Assembly: GCA_021791795.1 (NCBI GenBank)
Contig: JAJYVX010000001.1
Span: 30,360 to 72,425, forward strand
Direction: 5' to 3'
Length of the DNA stretch: 42,066 nt
DNA from: Actinomycetes bacterium
GTDB taxonomy: Bacteria; Actinomycetota; Acidimicrobiia; Acidimicrobiales; Bog-793
Below the pieces are notes generated by a model. The model saw only the letters and a program-made list of their open reading frames with translations. It had not been told where the DNA came from and made no database searches. The translations under genes and the position numbers were made by a program. Numbering within the stretch: position 1 is the stretch's first letter; the number at the start of each line of letters is the position of its first letter. Below are positions 2,106 to 36,891 of this stretch, one piece after another.

Positions 2106-5100
2106 GTGCTCACTGTCCATCGCTCAGAACGCGCAGACCGCCTTGTCGAGGCGTTGGGGGATCTTCTCCTTGACGCGCCCGGCGATCCCATGGCGCCCGA
2201 AGTGGTCGCGGTGCCGACCCGAGGCGTCGAGCGCTGGCTGACCCAGAGGCTCTCCCACCGCCTCGGCGCGGCCGGGGGCGAGGACGGGGTCTGCGCCAAC
2301 GTCGAGTTCCCCTTCCCGGGCACGCTCGTCGGTACCGCGACCTCATTGGCGTGCGGGATCGACCCGGACACCGATCCGTGGCCACCCAGCCGGTCCGTCT
2401 GGCCGCTCCTCGAGCTGGTCGACGAGCACATCTCCGATCCTTTCCTCGCGCCGCTCGCCGAGCATCTGCGGGCCGGCTCACCAGACCGGACCCGCCGTCC
2501 GGCTGAGCCCGGGGGGGCCGACGGCAGGGCGGGCGACGAGGGCGAGAGCCTCCGGCGCTTCGCGACGGTCCGGCACCTGGCAGACCTCTACGACCGGTAC
2601 GCGGTCCACCGTCCCCGCATGGTGCAGGCGTGGGCGATGGCGCCGGACGCCGATGCTCCCGGCGCCGGCCGTGCGCACGGAGGCCCGCACGGCGGTGCGA
2701 ACGTCGGTCCGCACGGCGACCCGCGGTCAGCGGCGCGTGACGGTTGGCAGCCCGAGCTCTGGCGCCGCCTCCGGTCTCGCATCGGGTTGCCGAGCCCGGC
2801 AGAGCGGCTCGACGTCGCCGGAGAGAGGCTCGTCGTCGAGCCCGAGCTTCTCGACCTGCCTCGCCGGATCTCGCTCTTCGGCCTCACCAGGCTGCCGGCG
2901 AGCCACCTGCTCGTGCTCGAGGCGATCGCCGCTCACCGCGACGTGCATCTCTTCCTGCTGCACCCCTCGGGGCGGCTGTGGGACGCGGTCGAGGAGTTCG
3001 CGGCCGAGACCTCGACGGCCGAGCTGTTCCGCCGGGCCGACGACCCGACGGTGTCCCTCGCCCGCAATGCCCTCCTCCGCTCCTGGGGCCGCGACGCCCG
3101 CGAGATGCAACTCGTGCTTCGCTCGCACGGGGTGACGGGCGGCGAGCACCGCCCTGTCCACGGCCCCGCCGCCGGCGCACACGGCCTCGCCGCCACCGCA
3201 CACGGCCTCGCCGCCGGTGAGCAGCCCGAACGCCCGAGGCTGCTGCGCCTCCTACAGGACGACATCCGGGCGGACCGAGAGCCACCGGGGCCACCCCGCC
3301 AGCACTTCGAGCCCGACGCGCGCCCCGTCCTCGACCGCGACGACGACACCATCCGCGTCCACTCCTGCCACGGTCGCCTCCGCCAGGTGGAGGTCATGCG
3401 GGACGCCGTGCTCCACCTTCTCGCAGACGATCCGACGCTCGAGGTGCGCGACGTCATCGTCATGTGCCCGGACATCGAATCCTTCGCCCCCCTCATCCAT
3501 GCCGTCTTCGGCAACCAGCCGCCGGGGAGCCCGACCGACGCGCCCGGCGTCGAAGTTCCCGAACCCGGCCCGCCGCAGCTGCGCGTGCGACTGGCCGACA
3601 GGTCGATCCGCCAGACCAATCCGATCCTCTCCGTGGCGGCGCGGCTGCTCGACCTTGCCGGTGGCCGCCTTACCGCCTCGGAGGTGCTCGACCTTGCCGG
3701 GTACGAGCCGGTCAGTCGCAAGTTCCGCTTCGACGAGGACGATCTCGGTCAGCTGGAGCGATGGGTCGGCGAGACAGGCGTCCGCTGGGGTCTCGACGCC
3801 GCGCACCGCGAGCCTTGGAAGCTCGAGCGAGTCGAGGCGAACACCTGGCAGTCCGGGCTCGACCGGCTCCTGCTCGGCGTGGCCATGGCGGAGGAGGAGC
3901 AACGGCTGTTCGCCGGCGTTCTCCCGCTCGACGACGTGTCGAGCGGCTCGGTCGACCTGGCGGGTCGTTTCGCCGAGATGGTCGAAAGGCTTGCCGCGGC
4001 GGTCGACCAGCTGCAGGGCCGGAAGACGGTCGCTTCGTTCACGAGCGTCCTGGCGGACGCGACCGAGTGGCTGGCAGTCGCCGCACCGAACGAGCAGTGG
4101 CAGCACGACCAGATGCGGCGGGTGCTGAGCGACGTGCTCGGCCCTGCCGACGCCGCGCCGCCGGCGTCCCTGCTCGACCTCGCCGAGGTTCGCTCCCTCC
4201 TTTCCGACCGGCTGCGGGGCCGGCCGACTAGAGCGAACTTCCGCACGGGCGACCTCACGATCTGCACCCTCGTCCCCATGCGTTCCGTACCGCACCGCGT
4301 GGTCGGGCTGCTCGGCCTCGACGACGGGGCGTTCCCCCGCCACGCGCCGCAGGACGGGGACGACCTTCTCTTGGCGGACCCCCTCGTCGGCGATCGGGAC
4401 GGCCGCTCCGAAGACCGTCAGCTGTTGCTCGACGCATTGCTCGCCGCCACCGAGCACCTCGTCGTGACGTTCGAGGGGCGCGACCCTCGCACCAACCAGC
4501 AGCGCTCGCCGTGCGTTCCCATCGCCGAGCTGCTCGACGTCGTCGACAGGACGGTCCGGTCGGGTGACGACGGTGGCGAGCCGGCAAGGCGGAGGATCGT
4601 CGTCGAGCACCCGCTCCAGTCCTTCGACCAGCGCAACTTCGTGCCGGGAGAGGTAGTGGGGGAAGGGCCTTTCAGCTTCGATCCCGTCGGCCTCGACGGC
4701 GCACGCAGCCTCGCGGAGCCGCCGGTCGGGCGCAGGCCGTTCCTTGCCGCGCCGCTCAGCCGTCCCGACATGCCGGTCGTCCAGCTCGACTCCCTCATCC
4801 GGTTCCTCGAAGCACCGGTACGGGCATTTTTGAGGGAGCGCCTCGGTTGGTACGGGAGCGGCGGCGCTGACGAGGTGAAAGACGCGCTGCCGGTCGAACT
4901 CGACGCCCTCGAGCTGTGGGCCGTAGGAGACCGGCTGCTCTCGGCCCGACTGGCCGGGGCGAGCATGGCCGATGCGATCGCGGCCGAGCGGGGTCGCGGC
5001 CTCCTTCCGCCGGGCGCGCTCGGTACCGCGGGACTGAGCGACGTGGAGGCCGCCGTCGAAGCCCTCGCCACAGCCGCGCGAGAAGCCCGGCGTGTCGGTG

Positions 5101-5819
5101 GGCCGGCCGCCGGGTCGGTCGGTGGGCCGGCCGCCGGGTCGGTCGATGGGCCGGCCGCCGGGTCGGTGGAGATCAACGTCCGCCTGCCCGGCGGTCGGGT
5201 GCTCATCGGGACCGTGCCGGACGTCTACGACGCCGAGGGCGAGGAGGGCCACGAGAGTCGTATCGTGCGCTGCCTCTACTCGAATCTCGGCCCGAAACAC
5301 CGCATAGCGGCCTGGGCCGACTTCCTCGCGCTGAGCGCACAGAGATCCGACAGCCGGGTCGTGGCGGCGACGATCGGTCGCAGCGTCGGCCACACGAAAG
5401 GGCATCCGCGGATCGCTCTCGTTCGTCTCGACGCCCTCGACGGCGATCCTTCCGAGCGGCGAGCGCGGGCCTGTGCGGCGCTCGATGTGCTCGTCGACCT
5501 CTACGGGCGCGGCCTGTCAGAGCCACTCCCCCTGTACACGAAGACGTCCGAGAGGTACGCCGACGCGGTGTTGCGCGACCTTGCCGACCCGATGGCCGAC
5601 TGCCGGAAGGTCTGGGACCAGAGGGACTTCGGCGAGGCGCTCGAGCGGGAGCACCTGCTCGTGCTCGGTCAGGACGTCCGTTTCGGGGACCTCATGGTCG
5701 CGCGACCGCGCGGGGGCGAAGACGGGCCTGGCTGGGGGAGCGAACCGTCCCGCTTCGGTCGCCTCGCCATGCGGCTCTGGGCGCCCGTGCTGCAACACGA
5801 GCGGGTGGAGTACCGCTGA
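2106..5819 (+). CDS. recC: Exodeoxyribonuclease V subunit gamma (RecC)
   Basis: 1237 aa ORF, GTG start; MLTVHRSERADRLVEALGDLL...VPTRGVERWLTQRLSHRLG...IRVHSCHGRLRQVEVMRDAVLHLL; overlaps recB by the TGATG junction. Confidence 0.93.
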   Translation: MLTVHRSERADRLVEALGDLLLDAPGDPMAPEVVAVPTRGVERWLTQRLSHRLGAAGGEDGVCANVEFPFPGTLVGTATSLACGIDPDTDPWPPSRSVWPLLELVDEHISDPFLAPLAEHLRAGSPDRTRRPAEPGGADGRAGDEGESLRRFATVRHLADLYDRYAVHRPRMVQAWAMAPDADAPGAGRAHGGPHGGANVGPHGDPRSAARDGWQPELWRRLRSRIGLPSPAERLDVAGERLVVEPELLDLPRRISLFGLTRLPASHLLVLEAIAAHRDVHLFLLHPSGRLWDAVEEFAAETSTAELFRRADDPTVSLARNALLRSWGRDAREMQLVLRSHGVTGGEHRPVHGPAAGAHGLAATAHGLAAGEQPERPRLLRLLQDDIRADREPPGPPRQHFEPDARPVLDRDDDTIRVHSCHGRLRQVEVMRDAVLHLLADDPTLEVRDVIVMCPDIESFAPLIHAVFGNQPPGSPTDAPGVEVPEPGPPQLRVRLADRSIRQTNPILSVAARLLDLAGGRLTASEVLDLAGYEPVSRKFRFDEDDLGQLERWVGETGVRWGLDAAHREPWKLERVEANTWQSGLDRLLLGVAMAEEEQRLFAGVLPLDDVSSGSVDLAGRFAEMVERLAAAVDQLQGRKTVASFTSVLADATEWLAVAAPNEQWQHDQMRRVLSDVLGPADAAPPASLLDLAEVRSLLSDRLRGRPTRANFRTGDLTICTLVPMRSVPHRVVGLLGLDDGAFPRHAPQDGDDLLLADPLVGDRDGRSEDRQLLLDALLAATEHLVVTFEGRDPRTNQQRSPCVPIAELLDVVDRTVRSGDDGGEPARRRIVVEHPLQSFDQRNFVPGEVVGEGPFSFDPVGLDGARSLAEPPVGRRPFLAAPLSRPDMPVVQLDSLIRFLEAPVRAFLRERLGWYGSGGADEVKDALPVELDALELWAVGDRLLSARLAGASMADAIAAERGRGLLPPGALGTAGLSDVEAAVEALATAAREARRVGGPAAGSVGGPAAGSVDGPAAGSVEINVRLPGGRVLIGTVPDVYDAEGEEGHESRIVRCLYSNLGPKHRIAAWADFLALSAQRSDSRVVAATIGRSVGHTKGHPRIALVRLDALDGDPSERRARACAALDVLVDLYGRGLSEPLPLYTKTSERYADAVLRDLADPMADCRKVWDQRDFGEALEREHLLVLGQDVRFGDLMVARPRGGEDGPGWGSEPSRFGRLAMRLWAPVLQHERVEYR
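3159..3217. repeat. 21-bp in-frame tandem repeat (about 3 copies) in recC
   Basis: acggccccgccgccggcgcac / acggcctcgccgccaccgcac / acggcctcgccgccgg; encodes HGPAAGAHGLAATAHGLAAG. Confidence 0.88.
5093..5168. repeat. 24-bp in-frame tandem repeat (3 copies) in recC
   Basis: gggccggccgccgggtcggtcggt repeated; encodes (V)GGPAAGSVGGPAAGSVDGPAAGSV. Confidence 0.93.
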
Positions 5820-8800
5820 TGGAGACCCCTGTCGAGGACCGGGACGCGCGAGCCCTTCAGCACTTCGACGTGTGCGGCCCGCTCCCGAGCCCGGGGGTCA
5901 CGGTGCTCGAGGCGAGCGCGGGCACTGGCAAGACGTTCACGATCGCCGCGCTCGTCACGCGGTTCGTCGCCGAGGGCGTCCCGGTCTCGGAGATACTGGC
6001 CGTGACGTTCACCCGGATGGCGACAGGTGAGCTCCGCGACCGGGTGAGGGCGCGCATTGTCTCGGCCGAAGACGGGCTCTCCCGCTACCTCGAGGCAGGC
6101 GAGACTCCGCGACCGGACGACGCCGTGCTCTGCTTGCTCGCACGGGGAACGAACGCGGAGGTCTCGGAGCGGCGGGATCGGCTGGCGACTGCTCTCACGA
6201 CCTTCGACGAGGCGACCATCACCACGACGCACGGTTTCTGCCAGCTCATGCTTGCCGGGCTCGGCGTGTCGGGCGACGTGGCGACAGGGGCCGCGCTGCT
6301 CGAAGAGCCCGAGGACCTCGTCGAGGAGACCGTCGACGACTTCTATGTGCGCTGGACGCTCGCCCGCGGTGCGCCGCCGCCGTTCAGCCGATCTCAGGCG
6401 CTCGAGGTGGCGCGGGAGGCGGTGGGCAACCCGGGCACGCCGCTGCAGCCCGAAGCGGGCTCGACGCCCGCGGGGCTGCGGCGGCGCCTTGCCGACAGTG
6501 TCCGGCGCGAGGTGGAGCAACGCCTACGGGAGGCCAACCTGCTCACCTTCGACGACCTGCTCGTCCGGCTGAAGGACACTCTGGTGGACCCACGCCGCGG
6601 AGCCGTCGCCCGTGCCAGGCTGCGTGCCCGCTACTCCGTCGTGCTCGTCGACGAGTTCCAGGACACGGACCCGGTGCAGTGGGACGTCGTCCGCAGCGCC
6701 TTCGGCACCGGCTCCACCAAGCTGGTGCTCATCGGGGACCCGAAGCAGGCCATCTACGCGTTCCGTGGCGCGGATGTCTATGCGTATCTCGACGCCGCCG
6801 ACGTCGCCTCGAGCCGCTACACGCTCTCCGTCAACTGGAGGAGCGACGCCGACCTGCTGGCGGCCTTCGACGCGCTGCTCGAGCCGGTTCAGCTGGGCCA
6901 CCCCGAGATCCTCTTCCGCTCAGTGAGCGCCGCGCCGGCGCATCAGCGCGCCGGCCTCCGCGGTGCACCCGTGCCGTCGCCGCTCCGGGCACGGGTCGTG
7001 TTCGCGAGAGAGCACGCGTTGCGGCTCACGAATCGCGGCGACGTCGAGAAGAAGGCGGCGCTCGACTTCGTGGTCGGCGACCTCGCTTCCGACATCGTCG
7101 GGCTGCTCGACGCCGGCGCGGAGCTCGTCGACTTCGCGGACGACGGCAGCGAGCGATGGCACAGGTCCATAGCCCCCGGAGACGTGGCGGTGCTCGTCGC
7201 CACGAACCGCCAGGCACGCGTCGTGCAGGACGCACTGCGGAGCCTCGGGGTGCCCGCTGTCGTGGCGGGGGTCGAGAGCGTCCTGTCGACCGAGGCGGCA
7301 CGGGACTGGCTCTGCCTACTCGAAGCACTCGAGCAACCGGCAAGCAGGTCCCGTGCCGTCGCGGTGGCGCTCACCCCGTTCTTCGGCATGCCGGCGGAAG
7401 ACGTCGCTTCCGCCGGTGAGGCCGAGTGGGAGGACGTCCACACTCGTCTCCACCGCTGGAGCGAGACTTTGCGCAGGCGAGGGGTCGCTTCTCTCTTCCG
7501 CTCCGTCCTCGCCAGCGAGGCCGCGCCGGCACGCATACTGCGGGAGAGGGACGGGGAGCGTCGCCTGACCGACCTCGGCCATATCGCCCAGCTTCTCCAC
7601 GCAGAGGCGTCTGAGGGCCAGCACGGCCCTCCGGCCTTGCGAGCCTGGTTGGCACGACGGATAGACGAGGCGGAGTCGGGCAAAGAAGGTGCGGAGGCGG
7701 AGGAGCGCAGCCGCTGGCTCGACTCGGACGCCGAAGCCGTGCAGGTGCTGACGGTCCACCGCTCGAAAGGCCTCGAGTTCCCCGTCGTGTACTGCCCCTT
7801 CTTGTGGGACGAGTGGAGCGCGCCGGGTGGGCGGCCCGTCGTCTACCACGACCCGCGAGACCGCGAGCGCAAGCTCGACGTCTCCGGGACGGATGGTGGC
7901 CGGGACTACGACGTGCATCTCCAGCTATCCCGTGCCGAGGAGAGAGGCGAGGCACTGCGCAAGCTCTACGTGGCCCTGACCCGAGCCCGCCACCAGGTGA
8001 TCTTCTGGTGGGTCCGGCCCCAGTCGGCGCAGAACTCCGCACTCGGCCGCCTGCTCATGGTCCGTGAGTCGGACGGGAGCGTCGCCACGAGCGCACCGCG
8101 AAAGCCGCGGGACGAAGAGATCTGGGGCCGCCTCGAGGAAGTAGCCGCCCGCGCCCCGGACCGGCTCGTGTCGGTGGAGCGGTCGAGCCGGCCAGAGCCT
8201 GCCATGAGGTGGTCGGGCCGCTCGGGCCGCTCGCTCGGGCCGCTCGAGGTGGCGCCGTTCGGCCGCTCGCTCGACCTCAAGTGGCGCCGGACCAGCTATT
8301 CGGGCATCACGGCGGCGGTGCACGGCGGTCCGGCAGTCGGGAGCGAGCCGGAGGAGAGGGGGACCGCCGACGAGCCGGACGTCGGAGGACTTCCTGAGCT
8401 GCTCGCAGGCACCGGAAGCAGCCCGGCGGCGAGCGAAGAACGCTTTCTTCGCAGTGTGCGCTCTCTCTGGGCGGAACTGCCCGGCGGCGTGGAGGTGGGG
8501 ACGTTCGTCCACCGGGTGCTCGAGGAGGTCGACTTCGCCGCCCCGGACCGCAAGGCCGAGATGGCGCGGGCGATCGGTCAGCAGCCGTCTTCTGTCACCG
8601 GCGGGCTCGGCTTGACCGACGCGCTCGTCGAGGCGCTCGACGCCGCCCTTTCGACGCCGCTCGGTCCCCTCACCGGAGGTATCAGCCTTTCGGACATAGG
8701 CCGAGGCGATCGGCTGGACGAGATGGGCTTCGAGCTCCCGGTGGCAGGTGGGGACCGCCCCTCGAACACCGACGCCGTCGCGACCGGCGACATCGCCCGG

Positions 8801-34277: not shown

Positions 34278-34793
34278 TCATGCCGCGGGCGCTGCCGAGA
34301 GCTGCTCGGCGACGGACCGCGCCCAGCTGGCAACTTCCTGCCAGTCGCGGAAGTCCCCGTCGAGGCTGCGGAAAGCGAGCGTGGCTGCCCGCTGCAGGCC
34401 GCGCAGGTTGTGCCGGTCGAGCCGCCCGGCGAACATCCGGTGCTCGCGAGCTTGGGTCGCTTTCATCACCCCTGGCAGGTCACCCGGGTCCGCACCCATC
34501 TGCTGCGCGAGCTTTCGCGTCGGGTCGCCCACAGGGCCGCTCGAGAAGAGCCAGACCGGCCGGCCGGGCAATTCCGCCCCGATCCTGCGTGCTAGCTCGG
34601 TGGCCGGCGCCAACCAGTGGCCGGTGTAGACCGCGCTCCCGAGGACGACGGCGTCGAACCCTCCGAGCTCCCCGACCTGCTCGGGCCGGAGCACCGTCAC
34701 CTCGAACCCGGCAGATCGCAGCGTCTCGCCGATCGCCTCTGCAATAGCCGCGGTCGCACCGTAACGGGATGCTGCTGTGACAAGGATCCTCAT
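34278..34793 (-). CDS. Flavodoxin-domain protein
   Basis: MRILVTAASRYGATAAIAEAIGETLRSAGFEVTVLRPEQVGELGGFDAVVLGSAVYTGHWLAPATELARR...RPVWLFSSGPVGD. Confidence 0.88.
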   Translation of the reverse strand: MRILVTAASRYGATAAIAEAIGETLRSAGFEVTVLRPEQVGELGGFDAVVLGSAVYTGHWLAPATELARRIGAELPGRPVWLFSSGPVGDPTRKLAQQMGADPGDLPGVMKATQAREHRMFAGRLDRHNLRGLQRAATLAFRSLDGDFRDWQEVASWARSVAEQLSAAPAA

Positions 34794-34865: not shown

Positions 34866-34976
34866 TCTTGCAACCTCGCGTTCGCGATGACGCCGGTAGC
34901 TCGGTCACCGCTGGGCACACTCCTGCGGGCCTTTCGGCTCTACTGCGCCGGCCTCCTCGGGCATAGGGTGATCGGC

Positions 34977-35252
34977 ATGCCCGAAGTGGTGGTGAACGGC
35001 CGCGCCCACGAACTCGGCGGCGTGAGCGGGCTGCTCATCGGCTGGACACGTGGTGCGCTCGGTCTCAGCGGGGCCAAGCCCGGCTGCGACGAGAGGGAAC
35101 GCGGCGTCTGCACCGTGCTCGTCGACGGAGAGTCGGTGCTCTCGTGCCGGACGCCGGTAGCCGACGTCGCAGGACGCGTGGTCACGACAGTCGAGGATTC
35201 GCCTTCGGTCCGCGACTTCACCCGGCGCAAAGGCGGAAATCGTGGGCTGTGA
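34977..35252 (+). pseudogene. Remnant of a CoxS-type [2Fe-2S] subunit of a molybdenum hydroxylase
   Basis: MPEVVVNGRAHELGGVSGLLIGWTRGALGLSGAKPGCDERERGVCTVLVDGESVLSCRTPVADVAGRVVTTVED; only the N-terminal plant-ferredoxin-like half is present and one expected cluster Cys (GEC) is replaced. Confidence 0.7.
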
Positions 35253-35261
35253 CCGGCCGGC

Positions 35262-35306
35262 CACAGCTTCGGCCGACACGGCTCCGGCCGACACAGCTTC
35301 GGCCTG
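35262..35306. repeat. 15-bp tandem repeat (3 copies) at the cox remnant junction
   Basis: cacagcttcggccga / cacggctccggccga / cacagcttcggcctg. Confidence 0.88.
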
Positions 35307-35424
35307 TGCCGGCGACACGCCGATGATCGCTCCTGCACCTGCCGTGGCCGACGCCGTCTTCGACGCCGCCGGTCGGCTCCTGCGCGACCTCCCACTCACG
35401 CCCGGCCGGCGCCTGCCGGCCTGA
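35307..35424 (+). pseudogene. Remnant of the C-terminus of a CoxL/XDH-type molybdopterin-binding subunit
   Basis: CAGDTPMIAPAPAVADAVFDAAGRLLRDLPLTPGRRLPA stop resembles the conserved extreme C-terminus of molybdenum-hydroxylase large subunits. Confidence 0.6.
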
Positions 35425-35433
35425 CAGCAGGAG

Positions 35434-36891
35434 ATGTCCATGAAGCCTGCAGGCACGCGAACTCCGTCCACGGAGGCAGGCGGGGGAATGGCGATCGTCG
35501 TCGTGATGATCGGCGTGATGATCACGGCGATCGACACGACCATCGTCGTGCTCGCCCTGCCCGAGATCGAGCGGTCCCTCCACGTGGCCCTCGATTCGGT
35601 CATCTGGGTGGTCATCGGATACCTGCTCATCATCACCCTTCTCGCGACCCAGGTCGGCCGCCTCGGCGACATGTTCGGTCGTGTCCGCATGTACGAGGCG
35701 GGTTTCCTCGTGTTCATCCTCGGCTCGGCACTGTGCGCCGTGGCATGGGACGAGACGTCGATCGTTGCGTTTCGCCTGCTGCAGGGCGTGGGCGGCGCCC
35801 TGGTCACCGCCAACAGCGGTGCGATCATCGCCGACCTGTTCCCACGCGAGCAGCGGGGCAAGGCATACGGTTACAACGGGATCGGCTTCAGCTTGGGTGC
35901 CGTCCTCGGGATCCTGCTCGGCGGTCTCATCGTCACCTACGTGTCGTGGCGCTGGATCTTCTGGATCAACGTGCCGATCGGCCTCGTCGGCGTCTGGCTC
36001 GCCCTCCGCTTGCTGCACGAGCGTGGGGAACGGGCGCGCCACCGCCTCGACGTCGTCGGCATGATCTCGCTCGGACTCGGGCTCTTCGGAGTCCTTTGGG
36101 CGGTGACGAAGCTGGCGACGACCCCCTTCGACTCCGAGATCCTCGGCTACCTCGTCGGCGGTCTTGTCCTCATCGGGCTCTTCGTCCTAGTCGAGCAACG
36201 GGCGGCAGAGCCGATGCTCGACCTCTCGCTGTTCAGCGTCCCCACGATGACGCCGTCGCTGTTGGCGTCGCTCTTCCAGGGCCTCGCCAACTACGCCGTG
36301 CTCTTCCTCGTCATCATGTACCTCCAGGGAGTCCGGCACCTCTCGCCGATCCACGCCTCCCTGCTTCTCATCCCCGGCTATCTCATAGGCGCGGGCATCG
36401 GGCCGCTCGCCGGCAGGCTGGCCGATCGCTTCGCGCCGGTCCTTCCGGCCACCGCAGGGCTCGGCATCCAGGTCGTCGCGCTGTTCATCTACGCCCACCT
36501 CGCAGTCACGACCGGGCTCTGGCTCGTCGTGGTCGCAAGCGTGGTGAACGGTCTCGGCGCCAGCTGCTTCTTCCCGGCCAACATCTCGGCGGTCATGAAG
36601 GCATCTCCGCCCACCGCCTTCGGGATCTCCTCGGGCATGCTGCGCACGTTCGCCAACGTGGGCATGGTGTTCTCGTTCTCGATGGCGATCCTCATCGCGT
36701 CCCGCAGCATCAGCCGCAAGCTCGCCTTCGCCATCTTCGTCGGCTCGACGAGCCTGCGGCCGGCGGATGCAATTGCCTTCACGTCGGGGCTCCACGCGGC
36801 GTTCTATGCCTCGATGGGCCTAATGGCGCTCGCAGCCCTCCTCTCGGCCGCACGGGCTACGGCGATCGGTGGCGCCGGACACCGCCCCTAG
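35434..36891 (+). CDS. MFS transporter, DHA2-like drug:H+ antiporter
   Basis: VMIGVMITAIDTTIVVLALPEIERSLHVALDSVIWVVIGYLLIITLLATQVGRLGDMFGRVRMYEAGFLVFILGSALCAVAWDE...FRLLQGVGGALVTANSGAIIADLFPREQRGKAYGYNGIGFSLGAVLG. Confidence 0.93.
   Translation: MSMKPAGTRTPSTEAGGGMAIVVVMIGVMITAIDTTIVVLALPEIERSLHVALDSVIWVVIGYLLIITLLATQVGRLGDMFGRVRMYEAGFLVFILGSALCAVAWDETSIVAFRLLQGVGGALVTANSGAIIADLFPREQRGKAYGYNGIGFSLGAVLGILLGGLIVTYVSWRWIFWINVPIGLVGVWLALRLLHERGERARHRLDVVGMISLGLGLFGVLWAVTKLATTPFDSEILGYLVGGLVLIGLFVLVEQRAAEPMLDLSLFSVPTMTPSLLASLFQGLANYAVLFLVIMYLQGVRHLSPIHASLLLIPGYLIGAGIGPLAGRLADRFAPVLPATAGLGIQVVALFIYAHLAVTTGLWLVVVASVVNGLGASCFFPANISAVMKASPPTAFGISSGMLRTFANVGMVFSFSMAILIASRSISRKLAFAIFVGSTSLRPADAIAFTSGLHAAFYASMGLMALAALLSAARATAIGGAGHRP

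Follow-up and report, generated by a model that had tools for sequence, protein, structure and literature searches.

Two ends of a fused molybdenum hydroxylase gene next to an MFS transporter gene in an actinobacterial genome

The window analysed here, i.e. the whole 42,066-nucleotide stretch of DNA, very probably carries a pseudogene that consists of the two ends of one fused molybdenum hydroxylase gene of about 866 codons, the inner part of which (about 2.17 kb) has been lost. The scar is real but represents ordinary bacterial gene decay. The main consequence is for annotation: the two fragments are best marked as a single fused molybdenum hydroxylase pseudogene rather than labelled as small genes for a ferredoxin or a CO dehydrogenase, so they give no grounds to infer CO oxidation. 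On a small scale, the case neatly shows one and the same locus intact, partly deleted and almost gone across related genomes.

The two remnants in the window

The 5' remnant (34964-35199, plus strand) comprises the start region and the first ~74 codons of the gene, within the [2Fe-2S] domain. Its open reading frame of 91 amino acids runs from the ATG at 34977 to a stop codon at 35250-35252. The 3' remnant (35233-35424, plus strand) is the tail of the gene including its stop codon (35422-35424); its frame is open from 35242 and differs from that of the 5' fragment.

Pfam was uninformative on the two fragments alone (Fer2_3 remained below the cut-off in the 5' piece and the tail had no match), so their recognition required a profile of fused relatives. 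This profile HMM was built from 8 intact fused homologues, leaving out the window and its intact counterpart L050 (see below), and the window was searched with it over its full length in all six frames. Only two matches were significant, the next best having an E-value of 1.1. The first covers ~75 residues of the 5' fragment (profile positions 27-101, window 34977-35199, E 2.5e-19), and the second corresponds to the last ~43 residues of the profile (824-866, ending at 35421, E 5.5e-13). Both lie on the same strand and in the order of the parent gene, in differing frames (0 and 1). The N-terminal [2Fe-2S] fragment stopping at 35252 and the C-terminal molybdenum hydroxylase fragment of the original prediction are thus borne out by the profile, and the latter probably starts earlier than had been proposed, at ~35233-35240 (EIVGCDRP). 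This short stretch is weak when taken alone (P about 0.06), and before about 35287 the 3' remnant was assigned by inspection of the alignment, with CDRP as the anchor.

A 15-bp tandem repeat of 3.4 copies (35253-35304, plus strand) had been placed at the junction. It lies instead within the 3' remnant, to which it adds about 30 bp in comparison to the intact homologues, and the junction is found at 35195 to about 35232. The repeats are a separate, secondary expansion and not the end-points of the deletion.

An intact counterpart and the extent of the loss

The loci of 80 relatives of the neighbouring MFS gene were compared. One of them, L050 (JAJYVT010000035.1, from a related metagenome-assembled genome, MAG), has both gene ends, 2.2 kb apart. 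They belong to one open reading frame (3385-5985) that encodes a single chain of 866 amino acids in which the [2Fe-2S] and the molybdopterin parts are fused. The MFS orthologue starts at 5989, 4 bp past the stop codon of the fused gene, and is 88% identical to the MFS gene of the window. The latter encodes an intact DHA2-type transporter (35434-36891, plus strand; Pfam MFS_1, E 9.6e-55; TIGR00711, E 1.5e-63, below the cut-off of that model). The fused gene and the MFS gene downstream probably formed one transcription unit.

At the gene, the DNA matches between L050 and the window are collinear and confined to the two ends, i.e. the ends of an intact gene are matched in order and strand, and the intact copy occupies the same place in a relative. 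Window positions 34964-35194 correspond to L050 positions 3381-3611 (74.5% DNA identity, E 1.5e-35), and 35299-35425 is collinear with 5860-5986 without gaps; this 3' stretch also matches a further genome, G013 (E 4e-17). The intact locus had been expected between flavodoxin and MFS orthologues and in the form of an operon. The MFS flank was found as expected, and it is the only flank common to the window and L050. The flavodoxin-like gene to the left of the scar (34278-34793, minus strand; Pfam Flavodoxin_5, E 7.1e-17) was not found in the L050 sequence examined and has no strong match in the other loci compared, and in place of an operon there is a single gene.

The distance between the DNA anchors is 2249 bp in L050 and 105 bp in the window. 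The difference of 2144 bp leaves a remainder of 2 when divided by three, i.e. it shifts the frame. If the ~30-bp gain by the repeats is taken into account, the missing part amounts to about 2.17 kb (83% of the gene, ~720 middle codons). As all of it sits inside one open reading frame, no operon was lost. The reading frame is destroyed: the two ends are in frames 0 and 1 with the stop codon at 35250-35252 between them, and since the net loss is not divisible by three, they cannot give rise to a joined protein.

The junction zone is a stretch of ~38 bp (35195-35232) at which L050 positions ~3612 to ~5785 are missing. In local alignments with shuffles its homology to either side was not significant (P 0.06-0.77), and the same procedure could not resolve microhomology or an exact breakpoint at the divergence between L050 and the window. 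As these ~38 bp have no assignable origin, more than one event is possible. Nevertheless, the comparison with L050 supports the removal of the inner ~2.17 kb of the fused gene in one large deletion event beside the MFS gene, as we infer and as had been predicted.

We considered whether the organism has an intact gene, the middle of which was skipped by the assembler. The genome is fragmented (3.45 Mb in 351 contigs, about 92% complete; the window is part of contig C188), which would favour such an artefact. However, the missing middle is on no other contig of the genome at an E-value of 1e-60, nor was an intact member of the fused family detected elsewhere in it at that threshold. In addition, the decay of the homologous gene in G013 took another form, and both ends are changed at residues that are invariant in all nine intact homologues (among them a cysteine of the cluster and the active-site Glu), as would not be expected of a working gene that had been skipped. 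This makes an artefact extremely improbable.

The parent enzyme

According to its sequence, the parent was a fused single-chain molybdenum hydroxylase, whose molybdenum part matches the solved structure 8gy3_C, an aldehyde dehydrogenase large subunit, in domain order and is unlike CoxL. Pfam finds in the L050 chain Fer2, Fer2_2, part of MoCoBD_2, a weak a/b hammerhead and MoCoBD_1. None of the NCBIfam equivalogs reaches its cut-off on this protein; the CoxL model TIGR02416 gives 115.7 bits, with a cut-off of 991. From residue ~220 to its end the chain consists of three blocks that are collinear with 8gy3_C, the domain order of which is presumably that of isoquinoline oxidoreductase (IorB). Eight further homologues (L152-L159, frames of 844 amino acids or more) are fused alike, so that members of this family are as a rule fused. 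The two ends in the window match those of L050 and L152-L159 in order, L050 sharing the MFS neighbour as well, whereas in the window ~720 codons are missing from the middle and the frame is shifted. The family members of G028 and G019 have shorter frames, that of G028 being at a contig end.

These results bear on the proposal that the scar derives from a CoxS/CoxL-type operon, the deletion of which would have left behind one half of coxS together with the end of coxL. The order (S, then L) and the strand fit this proposal, and split S and L genes are apparently present elsewhere in the genome of the window. On the other hand, the intact gene at the syntenic position is one fused open reading frame and not a pair of subunit genes, the profile of the fused family scores both ends, and the S piece finds its best matches among fused proteins. 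In L050 the parent gene also has neither the domain order of CoxL nor a score above the cut-off of its model. We therefore regard a deleted two-gene operon as very improbable, and the parent as one fused gene of ~866 codons.

Carbon monoxide dehydrogenase belongs to the same superfamily and has related [2Fe-2S] and molybdenum domains, but its subunits are separate, its NCBIfam CoxL models score L050 far below the cut-off, and the block at CoxL ~490-570 corresponds to L050 residues ~227-305, near the start of the molybdenum part and preceding the rest of it. The aldehyde dehydrogenase 8gy3 has the same order of molybdenum blocks in its large subunit (8gy3_C), whereas its [2Fe-2S] subunit is a separate chain (8gy3_B) that in L050 is fused at the N-terminus. 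The aldehyde oxidoreductase of Desulfovibrio (1sij/1vlb, 907 amino acids), which has no FAD part, is like L050 a single chain with [2Fe-2S] and molybdenum parts, but only the [2Fe-2S] part was reported as a stretch matching L050. A literature search on this enzyme type or on such a loss returned nothing directly on point.

One fused homologue (L156, 10649-5694, minus strand, contig C2 of G010) lies inside an open frame of 1652 amino acids, which extends about 770 codons upstream beyond the region of homology. In G208 a close homologue (74%) is on a 3.5-kb contig and has no MFS gene within ~1 kb downstream. The genome of the window itself contains, on contig C25 (L160, 4060-7356, plus strand), a 1099-amino acid frame for a fused molybdenum hydroxylase; its N-terminal ferredoxin-like domains are without cluster cysteines and its molybdenum part looks intact. 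The top NCBIfam match of this frame is TIGR03313 (Se_sel_red_Mo), below the cut-off.

Decay of the remnants and history of the locus

Both remnants have changed at conserved positions. In the 5' piece, 5 of the 24 columns that are invariant in nine intact homologues are broken, as compared to 0-2 in the intact homologues themselves (leave-one-out). The changes include Gly41 to Arg and Cys43 to Arg (alignment columns), i.e. the cluster motif CGEGxCGxC has become CDERERGVC and its second Cys is an Arg; the mutated cluster cysteine that had been noticed earlier is real. In the 3' piece 8 of 24 invariant columns are broken. Five of these lie where the alignment is firm, as compared to 0-2 for the intact homologues: Gly to Cys, Glu to Asp in the GAGE motif, Asn to Asp, Thr to Ala and Arg to Leu. 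The GAGE motif aligns with the GLGE and GVGE motifs of 8gy3_C and 5g5h_C, and its Glu is, as we assume from the xanthine oxidase family, the active-site base.

Against L050, the dN/dS of the 5' piece (0.39) is raised relative to that of the MFS gene (0.115), but that of the 3' piece (0.13, 41 codons) is not, so most of the divergence probably predates the loss of the gene. The low value of the 3' piece reflects either divergence that stems mostly from the period of the working gene or chance, given the small number of codons. Compared with the split of the window from L050, the deletion is probably not an old event.

The open 91-codon frame and its dN/dS below 1 could also be read as a sign that the two short frames encode working small proteins, e.g. 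a ferredoxin-like protein under selection. But the period in which these codons were part of a working gene accounts for a dN/dS below 1, and the 5' piece lacks one cluster Cys as well as the second [2Fe-2S] domain. Short frames conserved intact across species would have spoken against a scar; a family search found the same pair of pieces in none of the 34 other genomes of the family. Working small proteins are thus exceedingly unlikely, and we continue to treat the two pieces as one pseudogene. The loss of the parent gene may have been tolerated because the genome retains other molybdenum hydroxylase genes; about ten other matches to [2Fe-2S] subunits were seen in it.

Most relatives of this genome in the collections searched are MAGs of Actinomycetota, and several carry the name Acidimicrobiaceae. 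In the MFS tree the window groups together with L050, G013 and L049 (support 91/85, below the stricter mark of the tool). In G013 the fused gene is reduced to its last ~62 codons (192 bp; L129, 5306-5115, minus strand) with unrelated sequence upstream, and this remnant adjoins the MFS gene (4544-3033, minus strand), i.e. it is at the same place as the scar in the window. L049 has no recognisable trace of the gene upstream of its MFS gene, where an open reading frame named from its sequence as P-type ATPase-like is found. As the remnant in G013 differs and L049 has nothing, the locus probably decayed more than once. No further remnants were seen at the MFS loci L049, L051-L057, L059 and L062, some of which are on contigs that are short upstream of the MFS gene.

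The simplest reading is one gain of the fused gene beside the MFS gene followed by several losses; more than one gain is also possible. We tentatively suggest, with somewhat more doubt than confidence, that the MFS-linked fused gene is a repeated target of loss, with one gain in a small clade and at least two routes of loss: internal deletion in the genome of the window, 5' truncation in G013 and perhaps full loss in L049. If true, repeated loss would suggest that the substrate pathway is dispensable or costly. Among the MFS relatives, a second one in G018 (contig C61, 16117-17286) is itself broken by two TAG stop codons.
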